From Natronoarchaeum philippinense (lineage in GTDB: Archaea > Halobacteriota > Halobacteria > Halobacteriales > Natronoarchaeaceae): DNA of 64,000 bases. The translations under genes and the position numbers were made by a program. Location of the stretch: contig NZ_OBEJ01000001.1 in NCBI RefSeq assembly GCF_900215575.1, forward strand, positions 310,001 through 374,000. The letters run 5' to 3'. Position 1 is the first letter of the stretch, and every line of letters begins with the position of its first letter. This document shows, in pieces, positions 14,189 to 32,366 of this stretch. The notes beneath the pieces were generated by a model, which was given only the letters and a program-made list of their open reading frames with translations, had not been told where the DNA came from and ran no database searches.

Positions 14189-15700
14189 TCACTGGACGTA
14201 CCGGAGGACCCGCGCCATCCCGGATTCAAGGTGATAGAGGTTGTGGCAGTGGAACAGCCAGTCGCCGGGGTTGTCCGCGAGGAAGTCGATGGTCACCTCG
14301 CCCATGTGGGGCGGGACGATCACGGTATCCTTGACCGCGTCGCCGACCCGGAAGAAGTGCCCATGGAGATGCATCGGGTGGAGCACCGGGCTGCGGTTCT
14401 CCATCCGAATCCGGACGTGTTCGCCCTCGCGAACGCGCAGCGGGTCGGCGTCGGGGTAGGCCTGCCCGTCGATTAGCCACTCGACGGATCCGCGGGCACG
14501 CGACAGCGTCAGGTCGAACTGGCGATCCGGCTGACCGTTGATGCCCTCCAGCGGCGAGATGGCCTGAAGGTCCCCATACTGGAGTCGGCGCCCCTCGGCG
14601 GACGGTGTGGTCGGAGACTGGTCACTCTCCTCGTACCGGACGACGGCGCGCGCCGGCGGTTCGTCACCGTCGAGCGCGTCAGCCCGGAGCTCCCACGCGC
14701 CGGGGTTGTCGGCCTCGACAACGACGTCGTAGCGTTCTCCCGATCCGAAGACGAACGAATCTGCCGCGACTGGGTCGACCGGCCGGCCGTCGGCGTGCGT
14801 GACGGTAAGTTCGTGTCCGGCGAGTCGGACGCGGAACGCCGTCGCGCTCCCGGCGTTGACGAACCGGAACCGGACGCGCTCGCCGCGCCAGACGTCGAAC
14901 GTCGGCGCGGACTCGGGGAGCCGACCGTTGACCAACAGCCCGGCGTACGGCGGGCGCCTGTCGCCCATCTGGCCTCCCATTCCTCCCGGTCCTCCGCCTC
15001 CGCCGCCCATCCCGCCGGGACCGCCACCACCTCCACCGGGACCGCCGCCACCGTCACCAGGACCACCGCCGCCTCCCATTCCACCGGGACCGCTGTCGGA
15101 GTCGAGTTCCGAAAGAGGCTGGGGCTCCCCTTCGAGGTAGTCGTCGAGTACGACGACGTACTCCCGGTCGTACTCGACGTGTGGATCGGACTCTTCGATG
15201 ATTAGCGGGCCGTAGAGTCCGCGATCGAGCTGGAGCCCGACGTGACTGTGGAAAAAGTACGTCCCCGCGGGTTCGGCCCTGAATTTGTAGGTGAACGTCT
15301 CACCGGGCGAGATCGGCGGCTGGGTGACGTTCGGGACGCCGTCCATCGTGTTGGGCACCGGGACGCCGTGCCAGTGGATCGTGGTTCCCTCCGAGACGTC
15401 GTTGGCGATTTCGGTCTCGATCACGTCGCCCTCGCTCACCCGGAGTTCGGGCCCGGGGAACTCGCCGTCGTACACCCAGTTCTCGGCCGAGGCGTCGGCG
15501 CCCGGCTCCACCGTCCCCGGCGCCGCGGTGAGCGTCGTCGACGCGTCTGCAGGAGCATCGACGGGCTCCTGGGGAGACACCGGCTGGTAGTCGTCACCCG
15601 AGTTCTGCCCGCCCTGATCGAGACAGCCCGCGGCAGCGCTCGCGCCGGCCGCGCCGAGCGACAGCAGGAATCGACGGCGGGAGGAAGACGGCAGGGTCAC
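14189..15700 (-). CDS. Multicopper oxidase, Tat-exported and probably lipid-anchored
   Basis: A 503-residue protein with GTG start 15700. The Tat signal SSRRRFLLSL is followed by a lipobox-like AAAGC at the N-terminus. All four copper motifs are present: HWHG, FFHSHVG, HPMHLHGHFF and FHCHNLYHLESGM, the last giving type 1 Cys, His and Met ligands. Three cupredoxin domains are implied. An unusual insertion of about 45 residues near 205-250 consists of Gly, Pro and Met repeats (GPGGMGGGGG type). The likely role is oxidation of cuprous ions or phenolics at the cell surface, as in CopA/CueO. The gene overlaps the upstream DUF302 gene by 4 bases (GTGA), so they form an operon. Confidence 0.88.
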   Translation of the reverse strand: MTLPSSSRRRFLLSLGAAGASAAAGCLDQGGQNSGDDYQPVSPQEPVDAPADASTTLTAAPGTVEPGADASAENWVYDGEFPGPELRVSEGDVIETEIANDVSEGTTIHWHGVPVPNTMDGVPNVTQPPISPGETFTYKFRAEPAGTYFFHSHVGLQLDRGLYGPLIIEESDPHVEYDREYVVVLDDYLEGEPQPLSELDSDSGPGGMGGGGGPGDGGGGPGGGGGGPGGMGGGGGGPGGMGGQMGDRRPPYAGLLVNGRLPESAPTFDVWRGERVRFRFVNAGSATAFRVRLAGHELTVTHADGRPVDPVAADSFVFGSGERYDVVVEADNPGAWELRADALDGDEPPARAVVRYEESDQSPTTPSAEGRRLQYGDLQAISPLEGINGQPDRQFDLTLSRARGSVEWLIDGQAYPDADPLRVREGEHVRIRMENRSPVLHPMHLHGHFFRVGDAVKDTVIVPPHMGEVTIDFLADNPGDWLFHCHNLYHLESGMARVLRYVQ

Positions 15701-16083
15701 AGATCACCCAGCGCACGGTCGAATCGGGCGGCCGCGTCCTCTGCGACCGCGTCGAGGTCGGGGTCGTCGGCGACGCCCAGGAGCCGTTCCGGGTCGATCG
15801 CGCTCACGACGACGTCGCCGTCGTCGCTCTCGTAGACGATGACGTTGCACGGCAACAGCGCGCCGAGTTCGAGATTGACGTCGAGCCCCTGGCGGGCGAG
15901 CTCCGGGTTGCAGGCACCGAGGATGCGGTACTGCCGGAACTCTTCGTCAAGTTTCTTCGCGAACGTCGCCCGGATGTCGATGTCGCTGAGGATGCCGAAT
16001 CCCGCGTCCTCGAGAGCGTCGACCGTCTTCTCGACGACCGCGTCGAACTCGCCGTCGACACGCTTCTGTGTAGTATATTCCAC
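15697..16083 (-). CDS. DUF302 domain protein
   Basis: A 128-residue protein. I chose GTG 16083 because the sequence from there (VEYTTQKRVDGEFDAVVEKT) lines up with the start of the second DUF302 protein at 27857; the ATG at 16179 would add a non-homologous tail. Landmarks are FGILSDIDI, EFRQYRILGACNPELA and GALLPCNVIVYE. DUF302 proteins are small alpha/beta proteins of unknown function often found beside redox and metal genes. The two Cys (ACNP and LPCN) could bind metal. It is translationally coupled to the multicopper oxidase. Confidence 0.8.
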   Translation of the reverse strand: MEYTTQKRVDGEFDAVVEKTVDALEDAGFGILSDIDIRATFAKKLDEEFRQYRILGACNPELARQGLDVNLELGALLPCNVIVYESDDGDVVVSAIDPERLLGVADDPDLDAVAEDAAARFDRALGDL

Positions 16084-16306
16084 ACAGAACAATACGGCAC
16101 GAGAGGTTGTTACCCGTTTTGTATCGCAACCTGATGAATATGCATTCTGGTGGGTTTCTGAAGTCCATATTTCTATCACTGCGTCGCCGCAGGCGTCGGT
16201 AGATTATATGTGATTGTGGTATTCGTGCAATATCTACTGTGCGGCCCAGGCAACTGATCGATTGGCGTACCGGCGTTTTACGCCCGTGGTCGGTGTAGCT
16301 GTTACC

Positions 16307-17329: not shown

Positions 17330-17763
17330 CCACAATCATTGTCGCTGCCATGAGTACGGACATGACTACAACACGGCGTCCGACGAGGTGGTGCGCCAAC
17401 AGTCGAAAATCGATGACGAGGCCGAAGGATGCCGATGTGGGAGGCTACCATGGAGTCTACGATTGTGAACACTAGAGTGATCCACTCGCTGCCGGTGGCG
17501 CGGGGACAGAGAAGCTAAGCCACTCCTGGAACGTCTCGCTGTACAGGATACCGGGATCGAGAGCAGCGTAGAGACAAAAAAGCGCTGGCGAACCATCTGC
17601 TCGGGGACTTCGGTGCTGTGGCCCGCATCGCACTCGTACCGCTCGTCGACTTCGCGTTCGTTGGCAGCTAAACTGTGACTCTCGTCAGCTTCGTCGTGAC
17701 CACTATGGTCCTCCTGCTGTCCGATTGCTCTCCGTCTCCAGGCGCCTCACTGTGATCGTCCAT
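17330..17763 (-). pseudogene. Decayed N-terminal copy of the CopB-type P-type ATPase gene
   Basis: The leftward strand from CAT at 17761-17763 matches the 5' part of the intact ATPase gene at 24330-26615. Best conserved is 17470-17620 against about 26195-26350, including the residues [12 protein letters not shown] and the downstream membrane segment. The reading frame is broken by several indels and stops, and only about the first 145 codons remain. The match fades below about 17430, so the left end is approximate. No other gene is seen in 17234-17910. Confidence 0.7.
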
Positions 17764-17910: not shown

Positions 17911-18387
17911 TCAGTGTCGACTGCGACGACGCATTCCGCGTCGACGGCATCCGTGCCGATCAGAGTGCGTGTGACCGGTGGATTCGGGCGCTTGCTGGGC
18001 AGCGTTCGTCGTGTCGGCATCAACGGGGTCGTCCGACGGTCCGGGTTCGCCACCGATCTGGTCCTCCACGTGGGCGACCGAATCGGTCTCCAGCAGGGTC
18101 TCCAGTCGCCGCTCGAACTCCGCGTCGTCGATCTCTCCGACCGCGTACTGGCGTTTGAGCGTTTCCAACGCAGCGTTCTCGTCCGTTGAGCTGGCATCAA
18201 TGCTCTCAGGACGGTCGTCCGTGTCCCGTTTGGCCAGGACCCACGCCGTACCAGCACCGACGAGCAGTGCTGGAAGGAGCCAGTTCCAGGGGATCGCTGA
18301 TCCTGCCGCGACGAGACCGGCACCAACCGCCACCAGGCCGACGATCCAGACTCGTCCCGTCGATAGATCCAATATTGATCTACTCAT
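17911..18387 (-). CDS. Membrane protein with SHOCT domain
   Basis: A 158-residue protein with two hydrophobic segments near the N-terminus (VWIVGLVAVGAGLVAAG and LLPALLVGAGTAWVL) and a SHOCT motif (LKRQYAVGEIDDAEFERRL) at about 78-96. The tail after about 138 becomes Arg- and His-rich and unlike relatives, which may mark a frameshift near the 3' end. SHOCT domains are short helical pairs that probably mediate oligomerisation. This is one of five in the island. The function is unknown. Confidence 0.7.
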   Translation of the reverse strand: MSRSILDLSTGRVWIVGLVAVGAGLVAAGSAIPWNWLLPALLVGAGTAWVLAKRDTDDRPESIDASSTDENAALETLKRQYAVGEIDDAEFERRLETLLETDSVAHVEDQIGGEPGPSDDPVDADTTNAAQQAPESTGHTHSDRHGCRRRGMRRRSRH

Positions 18388-18525
18388 ACATTACTAGTAG
18401 TACCCCAAACTCAAAAGCTCTTGCTTAGACAGGAACTATGCCCTAATACTCCTCGAACCTTCGACTCCTTTGTCCCGCAGCTGTTAGGGGAAATGTGCTT
18501 AAGTGACAATACCATAGCATTGGGT

Positions 18526-18834
18526 GTGACTGAAGTCATCCTCTTCGCGCAGGAAACCTGTGGAGCATGCGCGACGCAACGAGAGAAAAATAACGGCATC
18601 GAGGACGAGTATCCGGACGTCGAGTTTCGGGAGATCGACATCCGGGAAGAGATGGACACGGCTGAGGAGTACGGCGTCCGGAAGACGCCCACGACGCTCG
18701 TCTATGCCAACGGTGAGCGGACAGCCGAGTTCATCGGGATCGTCGGCCGGGACGAATTGGAGTCGGCTATCAAGGACGCGAACCAGCAGTCATCCAGTTT
18801 CGTCGGGCGCTTCGTCGACGCCGTACGTGAGTAA
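18526..18834 (+). CDS. Thioredoxin/glutaredoxin-like protein with CGAC motif
   Basis: A 102-residue protein starting at GTG 18526, directly before the first strand (TEVILFAQE). Upstream in-frame ATGs at 18421 and 18493 would add residues that do not fit the fold. The redox motif TCGAC (about 11-15) is followed by EFREIDIRE and the cis-Pro strand RKTPTTLVYANG, then FIGIVGRDELESAI. It should reduce disulfides or handle metal-thiolate exchange in the cytoplasm. The cupredoxin gene follows 25 bases later, suggesting a shared transcript. Confidence 0.8.
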   Translation: MTEVILFAQETCGACATQREKNNGIEDEYPDVEFREIDIREEMDTAEEYGVRKTPTTLVYANGERTAEFIGIVGRDELESAIKDANQQSSSFVGRFVDAVRE

Positions 18835-18859
18835 CTGACTCCGAACTCCATTCCACAGC

Positions 18860-19591
18860 ATGACACACAACAGACGACAGTTCCTGGGGGCACTCGGCGC
18901 CGGTGCAGTCGCCAGCGCGGGGCCCACCCAACAAGCGACAGCACAGGAGACGCCCGTCGTCGAGATGGGGAACAACTACTTCGATCCGATCGGCTTGCAC
19001 GTCGAGCCCGGCACCACCGTTCGCTTCGAGATCGCGGCCGGGTCGCACTCGGCGACGGCCTATTCGAATCGCATTCCCTCCGACGCGACTGCATTCGATA
19101 GCGGCACCATCTCGGAGGGTAGCTTCGAGTACACGTTTGAAGCACCGGGCACGTACGACTACTACTGCATCCCGCACAAGTCGGTCGGGATGGTCGGTCG
19201 CGTCGTCGTCGGTCGCCCTGGTGGGCCGGCCGAGGACAGTCAGATTCCGGACGGCGACGTACCCGAGAGCGACGACATCGTCGAGCAGGGATCGATCCCC
19301 TACGAGACGTTCGCCGATGGCGACGGGAGTACCGCCGGTGGACCGATGGGACACGGAATGGGATCGGGACCAATGGGCGGTTGGGGTGGCGGCCCGCTCG
19401 GCGGACTACCATTCGTAGGCGGTTCACTCGCCGTGCTCGGTGGCGTCCTCTACTGGGCGCTCGGTAGTCGCCACGACGGGTCGAAGTCTGACGACGCCGC
19501 GATAGAAACGCTCGACGCTCGCTACGCTCGCGGTGAACTCGATGAAGAGGAGTACCGCCGCCGACGGACCCAGCTAGAGGACGACAAATAG
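18860..19591 (+). CDS. Cupredoxin (halocyanin-like) fused to a membrane segment and SHOCT domain
   Basis: A 243-residue protein. A Tat-type leader (NRRQFLGALGAGAVA) is followed by a plastocyanin-like domain (about 33-115) with type 1 copper ligands: His in AGSHSATAY and the cluster YYCIPHKSVGM (C-x2-H-x4-M). A Gly/Met-rich linker (about 165-185), one transmembrane helix (GGSLAVLGGVLYWALGS) and a C-terminal SHOCT motif (LDARYARGELDEEEYRRRR) complete it. The copper domain would face outside and SHOCT inside. It may carry electrons or copper at the membrane and associate with other SHOCT proteins. The fusion is unusual compared with halocyanins of about 150 residues. Confidence 0.8.
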   Translation: MTHNRRQFLGALGAGAVASAGPTQQATAQETPVVEMGNNYFDPIGLHVEPGTTVRFEIAAGSHSATAYSNRIPSDATAFDSGTISEGSFEYTFEAPGTYDYYCIPHKSVGMVGRVVVGRPGGPAEDSQIPDGDVPESDDIVEQGSIPYETFADGDGSTAGGPMGHGMGSGPMGGWGGGPLGGLPFVGGSLAVLGGVLYWALGSRHDGSKSDDAAIETLDARYARGELDEEEYRRRRTQLEDDK

Positions 19592-20870: not shown

Positions 20871-22214
20871 TCACACGATGTACTCCTGCCAGAACCCGTA
20901 CTGATCGCGGATCTGGCCCCGCGGGACGCTCAGGAGGATCAACAGCACGCCCGCGACGACGCCGCTCCACGTCGCGAGCGTCGGCGCGCCGAACAGCCAC
21001 GGCGCGACCGCGATCCACGCGCCGAGCGGGACGTTGACGAACCGCGCTGCCCTCGCCGGCTCGCCCGTCGCGATCACCGCGATCGAGACGACGAGCGCGC
21101 CGGCGAGGTGGCTACTGTCGGCAAGCAGCCCGCCGGTTCCGAACACCGTCGGCGAGAGCATCAGCCAGAAGCCGATCGCCATCGAGGCGATCAGGTACCA
21201 CGGGATAGAGACCCCCCAGAACATCCCCGCAGGTCGGTCCCGCTCGGATCGGGTGTCCCCGTTCAGGCCGGCGTCCTCCTCGGAGAGGTGCCCGCCCATC
21301 CAGAAGGCGTGCCACAGCGATGCGCCCTCGTCGGTCCGCCGGTCAAGCAACTGGACCATCGCGGCGACCTCGTCGACGGTCAGCGAGATCATCCAGAGCA
21401 TCCCGAATGCCGACAGGAGACAGAGCGTGCACCAGGTCCCGACAAGCACCGGCTGGGTGATGACCAATAGCACCTGAACGAACCCCAGCGGGATCACGAC
21501 GATGCCGAAGAAGGTCACCATCCACGGCATCGTCCGCCAGCGGCTCTTGTCGCCCATAAAGCCCATCAACGCCTCAATCGCGTACGCGACGGCGCCCAGG
21601 CCGGCGTCCGAGACGGGAAACGCCTTCGACACCCGCGAGTCGAGAATCTGGACGGTCCCGTCGCCGAAGAAGGGATCCCAGACGTGGTTGATGTAGCCGA
21701 GCTGGTAGGCCGCCATGTACTGCGAGGCGAAGAAGCCGAACATGCCCAGCGCGATCAGCGGAAACCGCTGGGCCGCCGTCGAGGGGTTGTACGACCACCC
21801 CGATGGCACCGTCGCGCCGTCCATCTCCATGCGCATCATGATAATGACCGAGAACATTATGACCAAGATGCCAACGAGCGTGTCATTGAGGTACGCGGCC
21901 GCCGTCGGCGCATGGAACACCAGCGGCGCCAGCAGCAGCCAGACGCCGACGCCGCCGCTGGCGTACGACGCCCACGGGTTCTTTCGCCAGATCGTCACGA
22001 CGCCGAGCGCGACGAGCACCAGTCCCGTCACGACGTCACTCCACGTCATCAGCGCGCTCTCGTACCCGTGAGCGTTCGGGCTAAAGACGAGCCAGATGCC
22101 CAGCGAGATGATGCCGTACTGAATCCACAGCTCCTTCAGCGGGTGGTTCAGCATCATCTCACCGGGTTCTTGCATGCCTCCGCCGTCGTCCTGATTCTGA
22201 GTGCTGTCAGCCAT
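20871..22214 (-). CDS. Polytopic membrane protein with SPW repeats and VKOR-like segment
   Basis: A 447-residue protein with about ten hydrophobic segments. N- and C-terminal parts resemble SPW-repeat proteins (LVFSPNAHG, WLMLSPTVFG, WIAVAPWLFG). The centre resembles vitamin K epoxide reductase, with the redox motif TWCTLCLLSAFGM. A role in oxidising or reducing disulfides at the membrane is inferred. Only one CxxC is visible; the extra loop Cys pair of bacterial VKOR is not. The ATG at 22214 overlaps the end of the GH15 gene by 8 bases. Confidence 0.78.
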   Translation of the reverse strand: MADSTQNQDDGGGMQEPGEMMLNHPLKELWIQYGIISLGIWLVFSPNAHGYESALMTWSDVVTGLVLVALGVVTIWRKNPWASYASGGVGVWLLLAPLVFHAPTAAAYLNDTLVGILVIMFSVIIMMRMEMDGATVPSGWSYNPSTAAQRFPLIALGMFGFFASQYMAAYQLGYINHVWDPFFGDGTVQILDSRVSKAFPVSDAGLGAVAYAIEALMGFMGDKSRWRTMPWMVTFFGIVVIPLGFVQVLLVITQPVLVGTWCTLCLLSAFGMLWMISLTVDEVAAMVQLLDRRTDEGASLWHAFWMGGHLSEEDAGLNGDTRSERDRPAGMFWGVSIPWYLIASMAIGFWLMLSPTVFGTGGLLADSSHLAGALVVSIAVIATGEPARAARFVNVPLGAWIAVAPWLFGAPTLATWSGVVAGVLLILLSVPRGQIRDQYGFWQEYIV

Positions 22215-24329: not shown

Positions 24330-26615
24330 TCAGTCCGCTGCACTGGGATGGCCCGACGCATCGACGCCCGGGAGCGACGGGAGATCGAGATCGACCCGGC
24401 GGAGCAGCTGCGCGTTGATCGCGACGATGACCGTGCTAAGCGACATCAACAGTGCGCCGACCGCGGGCGACAGCAGGGTCCCGATCGGTGCGAGCACGCC
24501 CGCGGCCAGCGGGATGGCAAAGACGTTGTAGCCGGCGGCCCATACGATGTTCTCCTGCATCTTCCGGTAGCTCGCCCGGCTCAACTTCACGAGACGGACG
24601 ACGTCCATCGGATTGTTCTGGACGAGGATCACGTCGGCCGACTGGACGGCGACGTCGGTCCCGCTCCCGATCGCGATCCCTACATCGGCTCGCGTCAGTG
24701 CAGGCGCATCATTCACTCCGTCGCCGACCATCCCCACGAGCTTCCCCTCGTCTTGAAGTTCCTGAACTTTTTTGTCTTTGTCTTCAGGAAGGACTTCCGC
24801 GAACACTGTGTCGATCTTCAGTTCATCGGCGACAGCGTTTGCGACATCTTGGGAGTCTCCGGTGAGCATCGCTACCTCGATACCGAGGTCGTGAAGCGCG
24901 TCGACAACCGCGTAGCTCTCCTCGCGGATCACGTCGGCCATTGCGAACGCGGCAACCAACTCTCTCTCGCGAACAAGATACACTACGGTCTGTGCGTTCT
25001 GGCCGGCTTCGTCGGCGAAGCGCTGGAGATGGTTGGGGACCTCGCTATCGAGTTGGGTCAACAAATTCGGCCCGCCGACGTACACCTCGTTCCCGTCAAC
25101 ACTCGCTCGGACGCCCCTTCCCTTGATAGCCTCGAAATCGGCCGCATCAGGAGCAGTGAGGTCACGCTGTTCAGCGGCCTCGCGGATGGCCCGCGCAATC
25201 ATGTGTTCTGAATCGCTTTCGACAGCCGCAGCCAGCGCGAGTGCCTCGTCTTCGGCGACGCCGTCAACGGTCACCATGTCGACGACGCCGTGCTCGCCTT
25301 CGGTGAGCGTCCCCGTCTTGTCGAAGATGATGGCGTCCAGGTTCCGTGCCTCCTCCATCGCGATCCGGTCGCGAACGAGCATCCCGTTGCGCGCCGCGAG
25401 TGACGTATTGATCGCAACAACGAGTGGGATCGCGAGCCCAAGCGCGTGCGGGCAGGCGATGACGAGGACCGTAACGACTCGTTCGATGACTGTAGCGTCG
25501 AACGATACTGCGATTGTCCACGCGATGGCTGTCACGACTGCCGCCCCGAGCGCGACGTAGAACAGCCACCCGGCCGCTCTGTCGGCCAGCACCTGCGTCT
25601 TGGACTTGCTCTGCTGGGCTTCCTCGACGAGTCGCATGATGCCCGCAAGCGTCGTCTCCTCGCCTGTCGCACCGACGCGCACGCGAAGGCTGCCGTCGCC
25701 GTTGATCGTCCCGCCGATGACCTCGTCGCCGGGTTCTTTCGAGACCGGCTTCGACTCTCCGGTGATCATTGACTCCTCGACGTCTGAATCTCCCTCTTCG
25801 ACGATGCCGTCAGCAGGGACACTCGCGCCCGGCCGGACGAGCACGAGGTCGCCCTCGGAGAGCTCGCTCACCGATACTTCTTCGGTGTCGCCGTCGTTGG
25901 TGATTCGCTCGGCGGTATCGGGCATCAACTTCGCCAGTTCGTCGACCGCGCTGGAGGCCCGTCGCACCGACCGCATCTCGATCCAGTGACCGAGCAGCAT
26001 GATGTCGATCAGTGTGACTAGTTCCCAGAAGAACGCCGACTGCGTCGGGAACACGACGCTCGCGAGGCTGTAGACGAACGCCACGGTGATCGCCATTGAG
26101 ATCAGCGTCATCATTCCCGGCGACCGGTCTTTCAGCTCCGGCATCGCCATCTGGAGGAACGGCACCCCACCGTACGCGAAGACAATCACCGCGAATACGG
26201 GGTTGATCCATTCGCTCCCCGGGAATGCTGGGACAGAGAAACCGAGCCACGCCTGCAACGTTTCGCTGTACAGGAGGACGGGAATCGACAGGAGCGTCGA
26301 GACAAAAAAGCGCCGGCGGAACATCTGCTCGTGGCCCGCGTGCATCCCGCCATGGCCCTCACCGTGCCCCTCGTGGGAACCGGAGGCGTGACCCTCGCCG
26401 TCGTGTTCGGCGTGCGTATGGTGCTCTTGGTGAGTCGCTTCACCCTCTGCGGCTGGGTGAGTCTCTTCTGATAGTAGCCCCTGTTCTCCCCGTTGCTCGT
26501 CAGACTCGTTGACCGCTTCATCGTGGTCGCCAGATCCGTGCTGGTGGTGACTGTCGTTGTCCTGCTGGTTTTTCCCTCCGGTGGGGTTCTCACGTGTATC
26601 GTTGTGGTCGTCCAT
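24330..26615 (-). CDS. Heavy-metal P-type ATPase, CopB-like (CPH motif)
   Basis: A 761-residue P1B ATPase. Residues 1-100 are His-rich ([24 protein letters not shown]), probably a metal-binding tail. Then come transmembrane segments, the TGES actuator loop ([15 protein letters not shown]), [11 protein letters not shown] with the CPH motif typical of the CopB/P1B-3 class, phosphorylation site [19 protein letters not shown], and [10 protein letters not shown] with the TM7/8 residues. It should export copper ions. In SEHMIA the Pro of the usual HP motif is Met. A decayed copy lies at 17330-17763 and the HMA chaperone gene is upstream at 26768. Confidence 0.9.
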
Positions 26616-27080: not shown

Positions 27081-27434
27081 TTACTTTGACTGTTCGAGTT
27101 TGTCCCGACGGGTTTCGAACTCTTCGTCGGTGAGTTCGCCACGGGCGTACGCAGTGCGAAGTTCCTCCATCGCGGGATTCCGCGACGACCGCGAGTCCGT
27201 CACCCGGCGGAAGACGAGGTATCCCCCACCGAGGAGGACGAGGAAGAAGACTAGCTGGACGAGCATCCCGACGAGTGGCCACCACCCGCTGGTCGTTCCG
27301 TAGCCACCCATCATTCCACCGTATCCCATCATCCCGCCGAATCCCATCCCCATCGTGAGCATGGGGAGGACGATGATCGCCCCCAAGATGAGGAGGATGA
27401 GAGTCGTGGTGTCGAGTTGGTTCGATGATGCCAT
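27081..27434 (-). CDS. Small membrane protein with SHOCT domain
   Basis: A 117-residue protein with two membrane helices (LILLILGAIIVLPMLTMGM and VGMLVQLVFFLVLLGGGYL) separated by a Gly/Met-rich loop (FGGMMGYGGMMGGYG), and a C-terminal SHOCT motif (LRTAYARGELTDEEFETRR). The Met-rich loop would face outside and could bind cuprous ions. It begins 6 bases after the upstream DUF302 gene ends, so they form an operon. Its closest relative in the window is the protein at 31335. Confidence 0.8.
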   Translation of the reverse strand: MASSNQLDTTTLILLILGAIIVLPMLTMGMGFGGMMGYGGMMGGYGTTSGWWPLVGMLVQLVFFLVLLGGGYLVFRRVTDSRSSRNPAMEELRTAYARGELTDEEFETRRDKLEQSK

Positions 27435-27440
27435 CGGGTA

Positions 27441-27857
27441 TTAGGCCTCCGAGATGGATTCGAGTTCGGTGCCAACACTCGAGAGGACGCGTTCGAACCG
27501 GTCGTGAACCTCGGTCGCAATCGAGTTGAGCGCCTCGTTGTCAGCGATACCGACGAGTTGTTGTGGGTCGACTGCGCTCACCATGACCTCACCGTCGTTG
27601 GTTTCGTAGACGATGATGTTACATGGGAGGAGCGCGCCGAGCTCGATTTCCTCGTTCAGGCCCTCGTGTGCTAGTCCCGGGTTGCACGCTCCGAGGATGC
27701 GGTACTGTCGGAATTCTTCGCCGAGCTTCTCTTCAAGTGTCGCCTGGACGTCGATGTCACAGAGGACGCCGAAGCCTTCGTTTTTGAGTGCCTTTCTGGC
27801 CGTCTCGACCACTTTGTCGAATTCACCGGCAACTGAAGTCTGTATTGTGTATTCCAT
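27441..27857 (-). CDS. DUF302 domain protein
   Basis: A 138-residue protein starting at ATG 27857. It has the same layout as the protein at 15697: VAGEFDKVVETARKAL, FGVLCDIDVQATLEEKL, EFRQYRILGACNPGLA and GALLPCNIIVYE. Besides the shared Cys in ACNP and LPCN it has one in LCDID. The function of the family is unknown; a metal or redox link is supported here by two independent placements beside copper genes. Overlapping palindromes lie directly before its start codon. Confidence 0.82.
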   Translation of the reverse strand: MEYTIQTSVAGEFDKVVETARKALKNEGFGVLCDIDVQATLEEKLGEEFRQYRILGACNPGLAHEGLNEEIELGALLPCNIIVYETNDGEVMVSAVDPQQLVGIADNEALNSIATEVHDRFERVLSSVGTELESISEA

Positions 27858-27952: not shown

Positions 27953-28303
27953 TCATCCGGTACGTTCGAGCTGTTTTCGCCGTCGATCGAATTCGTCATC
28001 CGAGAGCTCACCGCGGGCGTAGCGCTCGCGGAGAACCGACAGCGACTGCTCATCGTTCCCGCCGGATCCTCGGTTGAGGATCGCATGGGCGAGGTAGAGC
28101 GGGACGGCGATGAGGAGCCCCATCCAGAGGAGCCCCCAGAATCCCATCGCTCCGCCGAAGAGCCCCCCACCGCCCATCATGCCGCCGCCGTAGCTCCCGC
28201 CACCGTGGGCAACAGCCGTTCCAGTCGCCGCGACCAGCAGCGGGACGGCGAGTATCGTGAGTCGACGAGCAGTGCGTCCGACGTGAGTGGTAAGTTGCGT
28301 CAT
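27953..28303 (-). CDS. Exported or membrane SHOCT protein with Gly/Met-rich segment
   Basis: A 116-residue protein with an N-terminal signal-like helix (LTILAVPLLVAATGTAVAHG), a Gly/Met stretch (GGGMMGGGGLFGGAMG), a membrane helix (FWGLLWMGLLIAVPLYLAH) and a SHOCT motif (LRERYARGELSDDEFDRRR). If the first helix is cleaved, the Gly/Met segment would be outside and SHOCT inside. It lies between the DUF302 gene and the Met/His-rich protein on the same strand. Confidence 0.78.
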   Translation of the reverse strand: MTQLTTHVGRTARRLTILAVPLLVAATGTAVAHGGGSYGGGMMGGGGLFGGAMGFWGLLWMGLLIAVPLYLAHAILNRGSGGNDEQSLSVLRERYARGELSDDEFDRRRKQLERTG

Positions 28304-28360: not shown

Positions 28361-28663
28361 TCAGCAGTGGTCCTGCCCGTACATTCCGTCGTTGTAGTCG
28401 TCGTCAGCCATGTCCTGGGCCATCTCGTCGACGGTCACACCCATGTGGGACTCCATCCACTCGACGCTACTAGGACCCATGTGGTCAGTCATGTGGCCTT
28501 CCATCCAGGCCGCCCAGTCGTCCGCGGTCGCATTTCTGTCGTACGGTGGCGCATCGTCAGCAGTCGTGTTGGTGCCGTGTGCGCTGACCACGGGCGCGGC
28601 AAACGCGAATCCGACGATTGCAAGCGCCACGAGCAGCCAGCCGCCGAGTTTGAAGTTGGTCAT
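28361..28663 (-). CDS. Small exported Met/His-rich protein, candidate copper binder
   Basis: A 100-residue protein with a signal or anchor helix (WLLVALAIVGFAFAAPVVSA) and an acidic exported part rich in Met and His: WMEGHMTDHMG, WMESHMGVTVDEMAQDM, and a C-terminal end GMYGQDHC. The repeated W-M-(E)-x-H-M pattern occurs twice (about 53 and 68). Met/His/Cys-rich exported proteins commonly bind copper, and the gene stands in a copper cluster. No known family is recognised, so the copper role is inferred. Confidence 0.7.
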   Translation of the reverse strand: MTNFKLGGWLLVALAIVGFAFAAPVVSAHGTNTTADDAPPYDRNATADDWAAWMEGHMTDHMGPSSVEWMESHMGVTVDEMAQDMADDDYNDGMYGQDHC

Positions 28664-29029: not shown

Positions 29030-29620
29030 CTAGTGCTCCTGATTCTGTCGCAGATCGTCGCTCGGATAGATACGGTACGTCCGCCCTTGACGTTCGCGAT
29101 ACAACAGACCCCGCCTCTCGAGAGCACTGACCGTCTGACTGACCTTGCTCTTCGAGAAGTTCGAGCGATCCCGTAATTCGATCTGCGTGATGCCGGGCGA
29201 GGAGACGATCGGTTCGAGAATCCGCCGTTCGTCGTCCGGCAAGAGGTCCAACACGCGAGCCTGCGGCTGAGACTCTGGATTGATGGCCTCATCTGGCTGG
29301 GTGTCAGCCGCCGGTGCTGTGCTCTCAGGGTCGGCTGGTTCCGACATCTCCTTCTGTGAGCGATCGTTTGCGTCTGTGCTGGTGAAGTCGTCGCGGACTG
29401 CGAGATACCCTCCACCGATGACCGCCGCGGCGAGAAAGGTCCAAAGGAAGTACCAGAGCGGATTCGTTCCGTGAACCGCCCCCATCGACGTGCCCATCAT
29501 CGAGCCCATTTGTTCGATGGCTTGCTGTTGCTGGTACGCTTGCCAGCTGAGCGCACCACCGACGATGAAGATGGCAGCGACGAGGAGACCGACCAGCGTG
29601 TCTGATCGACGTCGATTCAT
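29030..29620 (-). CDS. Membrane-tethered winged-helix regulator
   Basis: A 196-residue protein; ATG 29620 is preferred to GTG 29629 because GAGGTG stands about 7 bases before it. Two membrane helices (LVGLLVAAIFIVGGALSW and YFLWTFLAAAVIGGGYLAV) flank a short external loop with several Met (QMGSMMGTSMG). After an acidic linker, a C-terminal MarR/IclR-like winged helix (about 135-193) follows: LLPDDERRILEPI, GITQIELRDRS, KSKVSQTVSALERRG and a YRIYPS wing. It may sense copper outside through the Met loop and control neighbouring genes. The sensing role is inference. Confidence 0.75.
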   Translation of the reverse strand: MNRRRSDTLVGLLVAAIFIVGGALSWQAYQQQQAIEQMGSMMGTSMGAVHGTNPLWYFLWTFLAAAVIGGGYLAVRDDFTSTDANDRSQKEMSEPADPESTAPAADTQPDEAINPESQPQARVLDLLPDDERRILEPIVSSPGITQIELRDRSNFSKSKVSQTVSALERRGLLYRERQGRTYRIYPSDDLRQNQEH

Positions 29621-29752
29621 CCATCCCACCTCGATTTGTCGTGATCCCAGTTCATGCGTGATAGTTTGCGAGACACCGCCGTACCAGTTGTGATTAGCCG
29701 ACGCAAAACTCGAAGCCGCTTGGTCGCGATACTTGCTCTCGAGACACAGCAG

Positions 29753-31334: not shown

Positions 31335-31718
31335 ATGCCTGAAAATACGGAGGACACACGCTTGGTCACGATTCTCCTCATCATCGGTGCGTTTGTCATC
31401 TTCCCGATGTTCTTCATGGGCTTCGGGATGATGGGATTCGGGCCGATGATGGGCGGTATGTGGGGCGGTGGAATGTGGAGCGACGGGACGATACCGGGCT
31501 GGATGTTCATCGTTGGAATCCTGATGCAACTCCTGTTCCTCGCTGCCCTCGTGGGCGGTGGCTATCTCATCTACAGGGTTGTAACGGGCAGTGAGAGTGG
31601 CTCAGACCAGGCGCTCGAAGAACTTCGGCTCGCGTACGCTCGCGGCGAGTTGACCGACGACGAATACGAACAGCGACGAGAGGCTCTCCAACGCGACACG
31701 GAATCACGCCAGGACTGA
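31335..31718 (+). CDS. Small membrane protein with SHOCT domain
   Basis: A 127-residue protein with GGAGGGAC before its ATG. Two helices (VTILLIIGAFVIFPMFFMG and FIVGILMQLLFLAALVGGG) flank a Met/Gly/Trp-rich loop (FGMMGFGPMMGGMWGGGMW). SHOCT is at the C-terminus (LRLAYARGELTDDEYEQRR). It is the fifth SHOCT protein in the island and a close paralogue of the one at 27081. It is divergent from the YHS permease and co-directional with the next gene (3-base gap). Confidence 0.8.
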   Translation: MPENTEDTRLVTILLIIGAFVIFPMFFMGFGMMGFGPMMGGMWGGGMWSDGTIPGWMFIVGILMQLLFLAALVGGGYLIYRVVTGSESGSDQALEELRLAYARGELTDDEYEQRREALQRDTESRQD

Positions 31719-31721
31719 AGG

Positions 31722-32366
31722 ATGACGCTGACACCTGACCGCCGTTACACGACTGGCCAACCCTCGCTCCCAGCTTGGCTCGACCGATACACGACGCTGG
31801 GCCTCTATGGACTACTCGTTGGAACGGGACTCTGCTTGCTCGCATTCATCACGAATCCGGTGCCAGACCCCTCGTTCCCGTGGGCGACGCTGCCGGAGTT
31901 ACTTCGACTGCCGTTCGAGCAGCCTCGGATTGAGCACTGGCCAGCAAGCTACACCATCGGTATTTGGCTGTGGATTATTGGATTTCCGTCGTTGTTCCTC
32001 GCTGGGTACAGGCGATTCGGAACGCAGACGCCATTCGGATCGACGCTGTGGCTCGCTGGTCTCCCCACGTTGGCGATGGTTGGCTGGACGACGTACTGTC
32101 GGTTCTTCTGGCCGAAACTCTATCCGCCGACGTGGAATGCCCCATCCTATACGTTCGTCTGCTGGCTGTACTGTTCCTCGTACGACGTGATCTGGAGTAA
32201 CACCGCCTACGTGGTTGCCCTGTTCGGTATCGTCGCGACGATCTTTGTAGTACGACGACGAAAGGGGGCCGGGTACGTCCTTCTCGGGTTTGGGCTCCTC
32301 GCACTTCCCCTCGGACTGCCAGCTGTGTACGATGGGTACCGACGAACGACGCAAACAGTCACCTGA
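31722..32366 (+). CDS. Unknown polytopic membrane protein
   Basis: A 214-residue protein with about five membrane helices (LYGLLVGTGLCLLAFI, TIGIWLWIIGFPSLFLAG, TLWLAGLPTLAMVGW, AYVVALFGIVATIFVV, GYVLLGFGLLALPLGLPAV). A central loop rich in Trp, Tyr and Cys (WTTYCRFFWPKLYPPTW, FVCWLYCSSYDVIW) is distinctive. It starts 3 bases after the SHOCT gene and is probably co-translated with it. No family is recognised. Confidence 0.65.
   Translation: MTLTPDRRYTTGQPSLPAWLDRYTTLGLYGLLVGTGLCLLAFITNPVPDPSFPWATLPELLRLPFEQPRIEHWPASYTIGIWLWIIGFPSLFLAGYRRFGTQTPFGSTLWLAGLPTLAMVGWTTYCRFFWPKLYPPTWNAPSYTFVCWLYCSSYDVIWSNTAYVVALFGIVATIFVVRRRKGAGYVLLGFGLLALPLGLPAVYDGYRRTTQTVT

Follow-up and report, generated by a model that had tools for sequence, protein, structure and literature searches.

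The 64,000-nucleotide window analysed here, a stretch of the Natronoarchaeum philippinense genome, contains a gene in which a predicted blue copper domain is followed by a stalk, a membrane helix, and a SHOCT domain, raising the question of what a SHOCT domain contributes to a copper protein. SHOCT domains are widespread and have no agreed function; in this gene, one is joined to a domain whose chemistry is known. In public records, most of the plasmid rows examined list the fusion simply as "plastocyanin/azurin family copper-binding protein", a naming after the copper domain alone that conceals the SHOCT tail, and a search of the open-licence literature found no paper describing a cupredoxin–SHOCT fusion or its operon. 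The answer that we favor, with a probability of approximately 0.5, is that the protein is a copper carrier tethered to the membrane and belongs to a mobile system for copper/silver tolerance, with the SHOCT domain as an assembly module.

Architecture and Predicted Topology of the Fusion Protein

The first-pass annotation had placed an open reading frame with a cupredoxin and a SHOCT domain at 18860–19591; this reading frame is complete, starts with ATG, has zero internal stops, and encodes 243 amino acids on which both Pfam models score over their cut-offs. Its parts are as follows.

18860–19591, + strand: cupredoxin–Met-rich stalk–transmembrane helix–SHOCT fusion, 243 aa (Pfam and conservation)
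18860–18946, + strand: predicted Tat-type signal peptide, residues 1–29, ending at 18946, no lipobox (conservation)
18947–19324, + strand: predicted pseudoazurin-type cupredoxin domain, residues 30–155, C-terminal helices included (Pfam, structure model)
19046–19192, + strand: predicted type 1 copper ligand span (35/35 in the alignment; matched to pseudoazurin ligands)
19046–19048 (H63), 19166–19168 (C103), 19175–19177 (H106), and 19190–19192 (M111), + strand: predicted copper ligands
19340–19411, + strand: Gly/Met-rich stalk, residues 161–184, predicted outside the cell (alignment, Met count)
19412–19468, + strand: single predicted transmembrane helix, residues 185–203 (hydropathy, conservation)
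19496–19576, + strand: SHOCT domain, residues 213–239, a two-helix hairpin predicted inside the cell (Pfam)

Residues R5, R6, A28, and Q29 of the putative signal peptide were kept in all 35 aligned fusion relatives, and the Tat signal model PF10518 matched residues 4–20 with a score under its cut-off. The lipobox pattern was found in 0/35 fusions, with the conserved A28-Q29 in place of the lipobox cysteine. The arrangement proposed in the first pass, one helix and then SHOCT, agrees with the predicted helix at residues 185–203 (best 19-residue hydropathy 1.67) and the SHOCT match at 213–239; with the N-terminal part exported and one helix in the membrane, the SHOCT domain would be cytoplasmic.

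The Copper Domain

The claim that the type 1 copper domain is complete found support in a Pfam match, in ligand conservation, and in a structure model. The model PF00127 (Copper-bind) matched residues 37–117 (E = 2.4e-10; 41.1 bits, curated cut-off 21.2), and each of H63, C103, H106, and M111 was kept in 35/35 aligned fusion proteins; when the set was widened to 65 cupredoxins, H63, C103, and H106 remained invariant and M111 was at least 90% conserved. These four positions align with the ligands of pseudoazurin, whose ligand roles we take to apply to the matched residues. Residues 30–155, modelled alone, gave a mean pLDDT of 96.9, and the model superimposed on pseudoazurin with Z = 16.0 and 2.0 Å rmsd (111 residues aligned, 33% identity). 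The fusion scored under the NCBIfam cut-offs for halocyanin (TIGR03102; 49.9 bits, cut-off 93.8) and pseudoazurin (TIGR02375; 46.0 bits, cut-off 109.85), and the cut-offs of the plastocyanin and amicyanin models were likewise missed, suggesting a cupredoxin of the pseudoazurin type that is not a member of any of these named families. CopI (NF051440) matched residues 18–59 only (19.5 bits, under the cut-off of 280).

Pseudoazurin is the nearest solved fold, and the C-terminal helices and four ligands are common to both proteins; in solved entries, however, pseudoazurin is a single domain of approximately 124 residues, whereas the fusion has a stalk, a helix, and SHOCT besides. CopI, CinA, and CupA are cupredoxins of bacterial copper resistance and resemble the fusion in being blue-copper-type proteins encoded beside copper exporters; none of the three is known to carry a SHOCT tail. 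Halocyanin shares with the fusion Tat export, a type 1 copper domain, membrane attachment, and haloarchaeal hosts. It is reported to be anchored via an N-terminal lipid on its lipobox cysteine (PMC2945643), whereas the fusion is without lipobox and falls under the halocyanin model cut-off.

The Stalk and the SHOCT Tail

The first-pass annotation had described a Gly/Met-rich linker between the copper domain and the helix; the enrichment in Met was confirmed, with 150 of 873 linker residues (17.2%) in the 35 fusions compared to 155 of 7873 (2.0%) elsewhere in the same proteins, but the stretch up to approximately residue 155 belongs, in the structure model, to the C-terminal helices of the cupredoxin. 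The window's own linker contains 3 Met (counted by eye), with a family median of 4 and a range of 2–7. In the 11 relatives listed with other C-terminal anchors, the C-terminal parts were not Met-rich.

PF09851 (SHOCT) matched residues 213–239 of 243 (E = 4.8e-8; 33.0 bits, curated cut-off 27). Helices at 210–223 and 229–242 reached a pLDDT of approximately 74–81 within an otherwise poor full-length model (mean pLDDT 46.9), which was used for the SHOCT hairpin only. Over 181 non-independent pairs, the cupredoxin had a dN/dS of 0.15 and the stalk and SHOCT each had 0.17, with the highest value of any region, 0.30, in the signal peptide. SHOCT proteins (PF09851) share with the fusion a helix followed by a C-terminal SHOCT hairpin. 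The paper defining the domain counts 63 architectures in Pfam 26, leaves the function open, and reports a negative result for the one direct test of whether SHOCT is an oligomerisation domain; its main text contains 0 mentions of copper or cupredoxin, and the architecture may be in its Table S3. A paper on PSP systems proposes that SHOCT-like domains help to assemble membrane-associated complexes.

Distribution and Origin

The fusion is common in haloarchaea: among 391 genomes of the class, it was found in 54 (57 matches spanning residue 5 or lower to residue 239 or higher of the fusion, from eight family codes; two of them, in G011 and G070, have in-frame stops), and within the nine genomes of the window's family, it was found in the window's own genome only. 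The 80 loci taken from named genomes included 43 intact fusions by pattern, to which L216 and the 5′-truncated L260 were added by eye, as well as broken copies in L211, L214, L219, and L230; both Pfam domains were recovered in 32/32 aligned relatives (E = 0.001). The first-pass annotation had proposed a search for the same domain order in other archaea, which located it in haloarchaea only, and had named a sequencing frameshift joining two genes as the finding that would overturn it; a frameshift or mis-joining is excluded by the conservation of the fusion in dozens of independently sequenced genomes.

Natural broken fusion copies were seen in L078 (the 9483 region), L109, L110, L214, L219, and L230; the copy in L078 stops just after the helix and is therefore without SHOCT.

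Outside haloarchaea, no fusion was found by searches that are blind to fusions built on an unrelated cupredoxin. All genus names listed for 46 plasmid records matching at E = 1e-15 were haloarchaeal (nine names unlisted), and the 18 genomes that matched among 392 of the phylum (E = 1e-30) either belonged to the window's order or were its own genome. The lone non-haloarchaeal relative in the 80 genome loci comes from a Fraserbacteria MAG (L263) and does not match the SHOCT pattern.

In a tree of 84 cupredoxins, computed with the tail columns removed and L123 omitted (frame broken upstream), the 35 fusions clustered as a single group (SH-aLRT 98) within stand-alone proteins that carry a lipobox. 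The relatives are anchored in several ways (lipobox, PGF-type C-terminus, plain C-terminal helix); this variety, together with the position of the single fusion group beside lipobox proteins, makes the fusion look like an anchor exchange, from a lipid to a helix plus SHOCT. In a tree of the tails, which are too short to resolve it (two long rows omitted; L109 and L110, labelled stand-alone, are broken fusions), the fusion tails were not one clean group, and one group was not rejected (p-AU = 0.197).

The Operon and Its Arrangement in the Window

The fusion is usually the last gene of an operon with the order ArsP/YHS permease, MarR-like membrane protein, SMALL, SHOCT1, DUF302, SHOCT2, thioredoxin, fusion. 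In the window, the following genes were identified.

14189–15700, − strand: multicopper oxidase (MCO)
17911–18387, − strand: SHOCT0, a divergent membrane protein with SHOCT and no Met-rich segment (Pfam, survey)
18421–18834, + strand: thioredoxin-like protein (CGAC), directly upstream of the fusion, 25 nt before its ATG
24330–26615, − strand: copper-translocating P-type ATPase CopA with a His-rich N-terminus
27081–27434, − strand: SHOCT2 (helix, Met-rich loop, helix, SHOCT)
27441–27857, − strand: DUF302 protein with conserved Cys33, Cys58, and Cys79
27953–28303, − strand: SHOCT1 (signal peptide, Met-rich segment, helix, SHOCT)
28361–28663, − strand: SMALL, a predicted exported Met/His-rich protein with no Pfam match
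29030–29629, − strand: MARR, a membrane protein with a winged-helix (MarR-like) domain and a Met-rich loop
29753–31282, − strand: PERM, an ArsP_1 permease with a C-terminal YHS domain, the first gene of the operon
31335–31718, + strand: SHOCT3, with the layout of SHOCT2, divergent from PERM

The operon is present here in two pieces, one running from the permease to SHOCT2 (31282–27081, − strand) and followed by CopA, and the other consisting of the thioredoxin and fusion genes (18421–19591, + strand). The closest relatives of the fusion, in L107 and L108, also adjoin a divergent SHOCT0 and are without the operon, so the window copy may descend from a lineage in which the fusion had moved out of the operon, and not from a recent split. 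Judging from annotated orthologues of 309 nt, the real start of the thioredoxin-like gene is probably near 18526 (102 aa); its CxxC motif was found in 31/32 rows, window included. PERM resembles the SO_0444 Cu/Zn efflux family, with a score under the cut-off, and the three DUF302 cysteines were kept in 25/27 (Cys33), 26/27 (Cys58), and 26/27 (Cys79) sequences. MARR residues M41, M44, M45, and H53 were invariant (16/16), as were SMALL residues H29, M54, M58, M74, M81, and C100 (20/20). MARR, with two hydrophobic segments and invariant Met/His in an outer loop, is a candidate membrane-bound metal sensor; SMALL, by its invariant Met/His/Cys set, is a candidate metal-binding protein.

Other island features include a segment (17478–17606) next to the thioredoxin–fusion pair with 81% DNA identity to part of CopA (26204–26334), likely a CopA remnant, and a second DUF302 gene (15697–16179, − strand) beside the multicopper oxidase, with 71% DNA identity over 300 nt to the operon DUF302. 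The gene at 20871–22214 (− strand) encodes a membrane protein that combines SPW repeats with a vitamin K epoxide reductase domain and has a relative near the fusion in L091; another membrane protein, of unclear family (31722–32366, + strand), comes after SHOCT3 here and is again its neighbour in several related loci.

Conservation of the operon was assessed over 46 distinct fusion genes for which 3 kb or more of upstream sequence was available; copies were grouped by their last 150 residues, such that near-identical ones count once and related ones separately. On the same strand within 3 kb upstream of the fusion, we found SHOCT2 in 37/46, DUF302 in 36/46, SHOCT1 in 34/46, thioredoxin in 32/46, and SMALL in 27/46, the SHOCT queries cross-matching one another; within 9 kb on either strand, PERM was found in 26/46, MARR in 23/46, CopA in 17/46, and MCO in 14/46. 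Twenty intact stand-alone cupredoxins of the same clade apparently have neither SHOCT2 nor DUF302 upstream, the four SHOCT2 matches in this group being assigned to broken fusion copies; stand-alone sisters are often near CopA and MCO instead. One fusion subgroup is without thioredoxin, and in loci L098, L103, and L108 most of the operon is not nearby. The operon is a likely copper or silver tolerance system.

A Shared Design among SHOCT Proteins

Hydropathy and signal peptides suggest one predicted layout for SHOCT1, SHOCT2, SHOCT3, and the fusion tail, with a Met-rich part outside, a helix, and SHOCT inside; Met residues were kept in nearly all relatives of SHOCT1 and SHOCT2, and SHOCT3 is Met-rich. 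The first-pass annotation had extended the link to copper carriers to the island's other SHOCT proteins as interaction partners. Given the upstream SHOCT2 (37/46) and DUF302 (36/46) genes, a functional association appears well supported, and the gene-fusion argument is the single pointer to direct contact; across the island, the shared layout of SHOCT1, SHOCT2, and SHOCT3 fits the proposal, which should not be extended to SHOCT0, as this protein lacks a Met-rich segment.

A survey of nine genomes of the window's family gave 37 SHOCT matches over the cut-off. With Met-rich defined as at least 4 Met before the helix, 12/14 Met-rich matches and 5/23 others were near island-type genes; the markers were partly taken from the island itself, and five matches lie in one neighbourhood. 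Counted by hand with CopA, MCO, and cupredoxin as the only markers, the values were 8/14 and 3/23. The fusion itself, with 3 Met, is in the low group, and the link of Met-rich SHOCT proteins to island-type genes is suggestive only.

Proposed Function and Alternative Explanations

In the reading that we favor, the fusion would be a pseudoazurin-type blue copper protein exported by the Tat pathway, with its single C-terminal helix keeping the copper domain tethered outside the membrane and a cytoplasmic SHOCT hairpin keeping it together with SHOCT1 and SHOCT2 in one membrane assembly. The fusion, SMALL, and the ArsP/YHS permease, with CopA and the multicopper oxidase where present, may work together, such that the assembly would take up or hand on copper, perhaps silver, at the outer membrane face as part of a mobile metal-tolerance system. 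This reading draws on the observed domain order, ligand conservation, single origin in the cupredoxin tree, conserved operon, and plasmid spread (described below); metal binding, topology, complex formation, the direction of metal transfer, and tolerance enter it as predictions. Counter to it are the negative oligomerisation test in the SHOCT-defining paper, the shortness of SHOCT, which could merely secure the helix, the 9/46 fusions with no SHOCT2 within 3 kb upstream, the SHOCT-less copy in L078, and a window stalk with Met under the family median. A bolder version, which we consider doubtful, is that SHOCT is a cytoplasmic zip code by which up to four Met-stalked membrane proteins (the fusion and SHOCT1, SHOCT2, and SHOCT3) would cluster around the ArsP/YHS permease, relaying Cu(I)/Ag(I) along outward-facing Met-rich stalks to or from the blue copper domain; if true, this would be a previously undescribed kind of metal-handling complex, plasmid-borne between haloarchaeal genera.

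About as doubtful is a tail that is a mere anchor, in which a lipid-anchored cupredoxin would have exchanged its lipobox for a helix whose partnerless SHOCT end secures it in the membrane. The varied anchors of sister cupredoxins (lipobox, PGF-type C-terminus, or plain C-terminal helix), the absence of the lipobox pattern from all 35 fusions, and L106, which has a plain C-terminal helix and no SHOCT, are consistent with such a history; however, the 11 listed relatives with other C-terminal anchors are not Met-rich there, constraint on SHOCT is similar to that on the copper domain (dN/dS 0.17 vs. 0.15), and SHOCT1, SHOCT2, and DUF302 adjoin the fusions, unlike the stand-alone proteins. Pseudoazurins are electron carriers, and the pseudoazurin-like fold, the thioredoxin and DUF302 proteins with conserved cysteines in the same operon, and a multicopper oxidase within 9 kb in 14/46 would suit a halocyanin-like electron carrier to a membrane oxidase or to the operon thiol proteins, with copper as cofactor, not cargo. 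We consider this distinctly improbable, as neither a nitrite reductase nor a respiratory oxidase is annotated within approximately 10–12 kb in four plasmid regions, the operon instead encodes a permease and Met-rich proteins, often alongside CopA, and a whole subgroup is without thioredoxin. Least probable, and by our estimate very unlikely, is a transmembrane copper sensor whose outer copper domain would switch state and whose inner SHOCT would signal to a cytoplasmic regulator: the operon already has a membrane regulator with a conserved Met-rich loop, MARR is found within 9 kb in only 23/46 fusions, and a flexible Gly-rich stalk seems ill-suited to signal transfer, even if the outside-in layout fits and SHOCT-like domains are found with regulators in PSP-type systems. 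The fusion has a conserved partner set in culturable haloarchaea, which makes the role of SHOCT testable.

Mobility and Metal-Stress Records

The fusion gene is mobile, with recent plasmid-borne spread: a 711-nt match to it was 100% identical across ten species of seven genera, with long flanks at 97.4–100%. A 20.7-kb query was held to at least 80% by five plasmid records, with the five listed first at 99.7% or higher, and such near-identity of approximately 20 kb across genera points to very recent transfer. Common and mobile, the operon is a candidate for copper or silver tolerance that has apparently not been described before.

Approximately 20 kb around the fusion (L188:1–20711; L186–L195) is near-identical in ten species and is also found on several plasmids such as pNG600 of Haloarcula marismortui. 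Natrinema salsiterrestre S1CR25-10 has two fusion copies and is reported to grow slightly at 10 mM copper (PMC12029414), a pairing that is anecdotal. In Haloferax alexandrinus, silver is reported to raise the levels of copA, of two plastocyanin-like genes, and of a SHOCT membrane protein.
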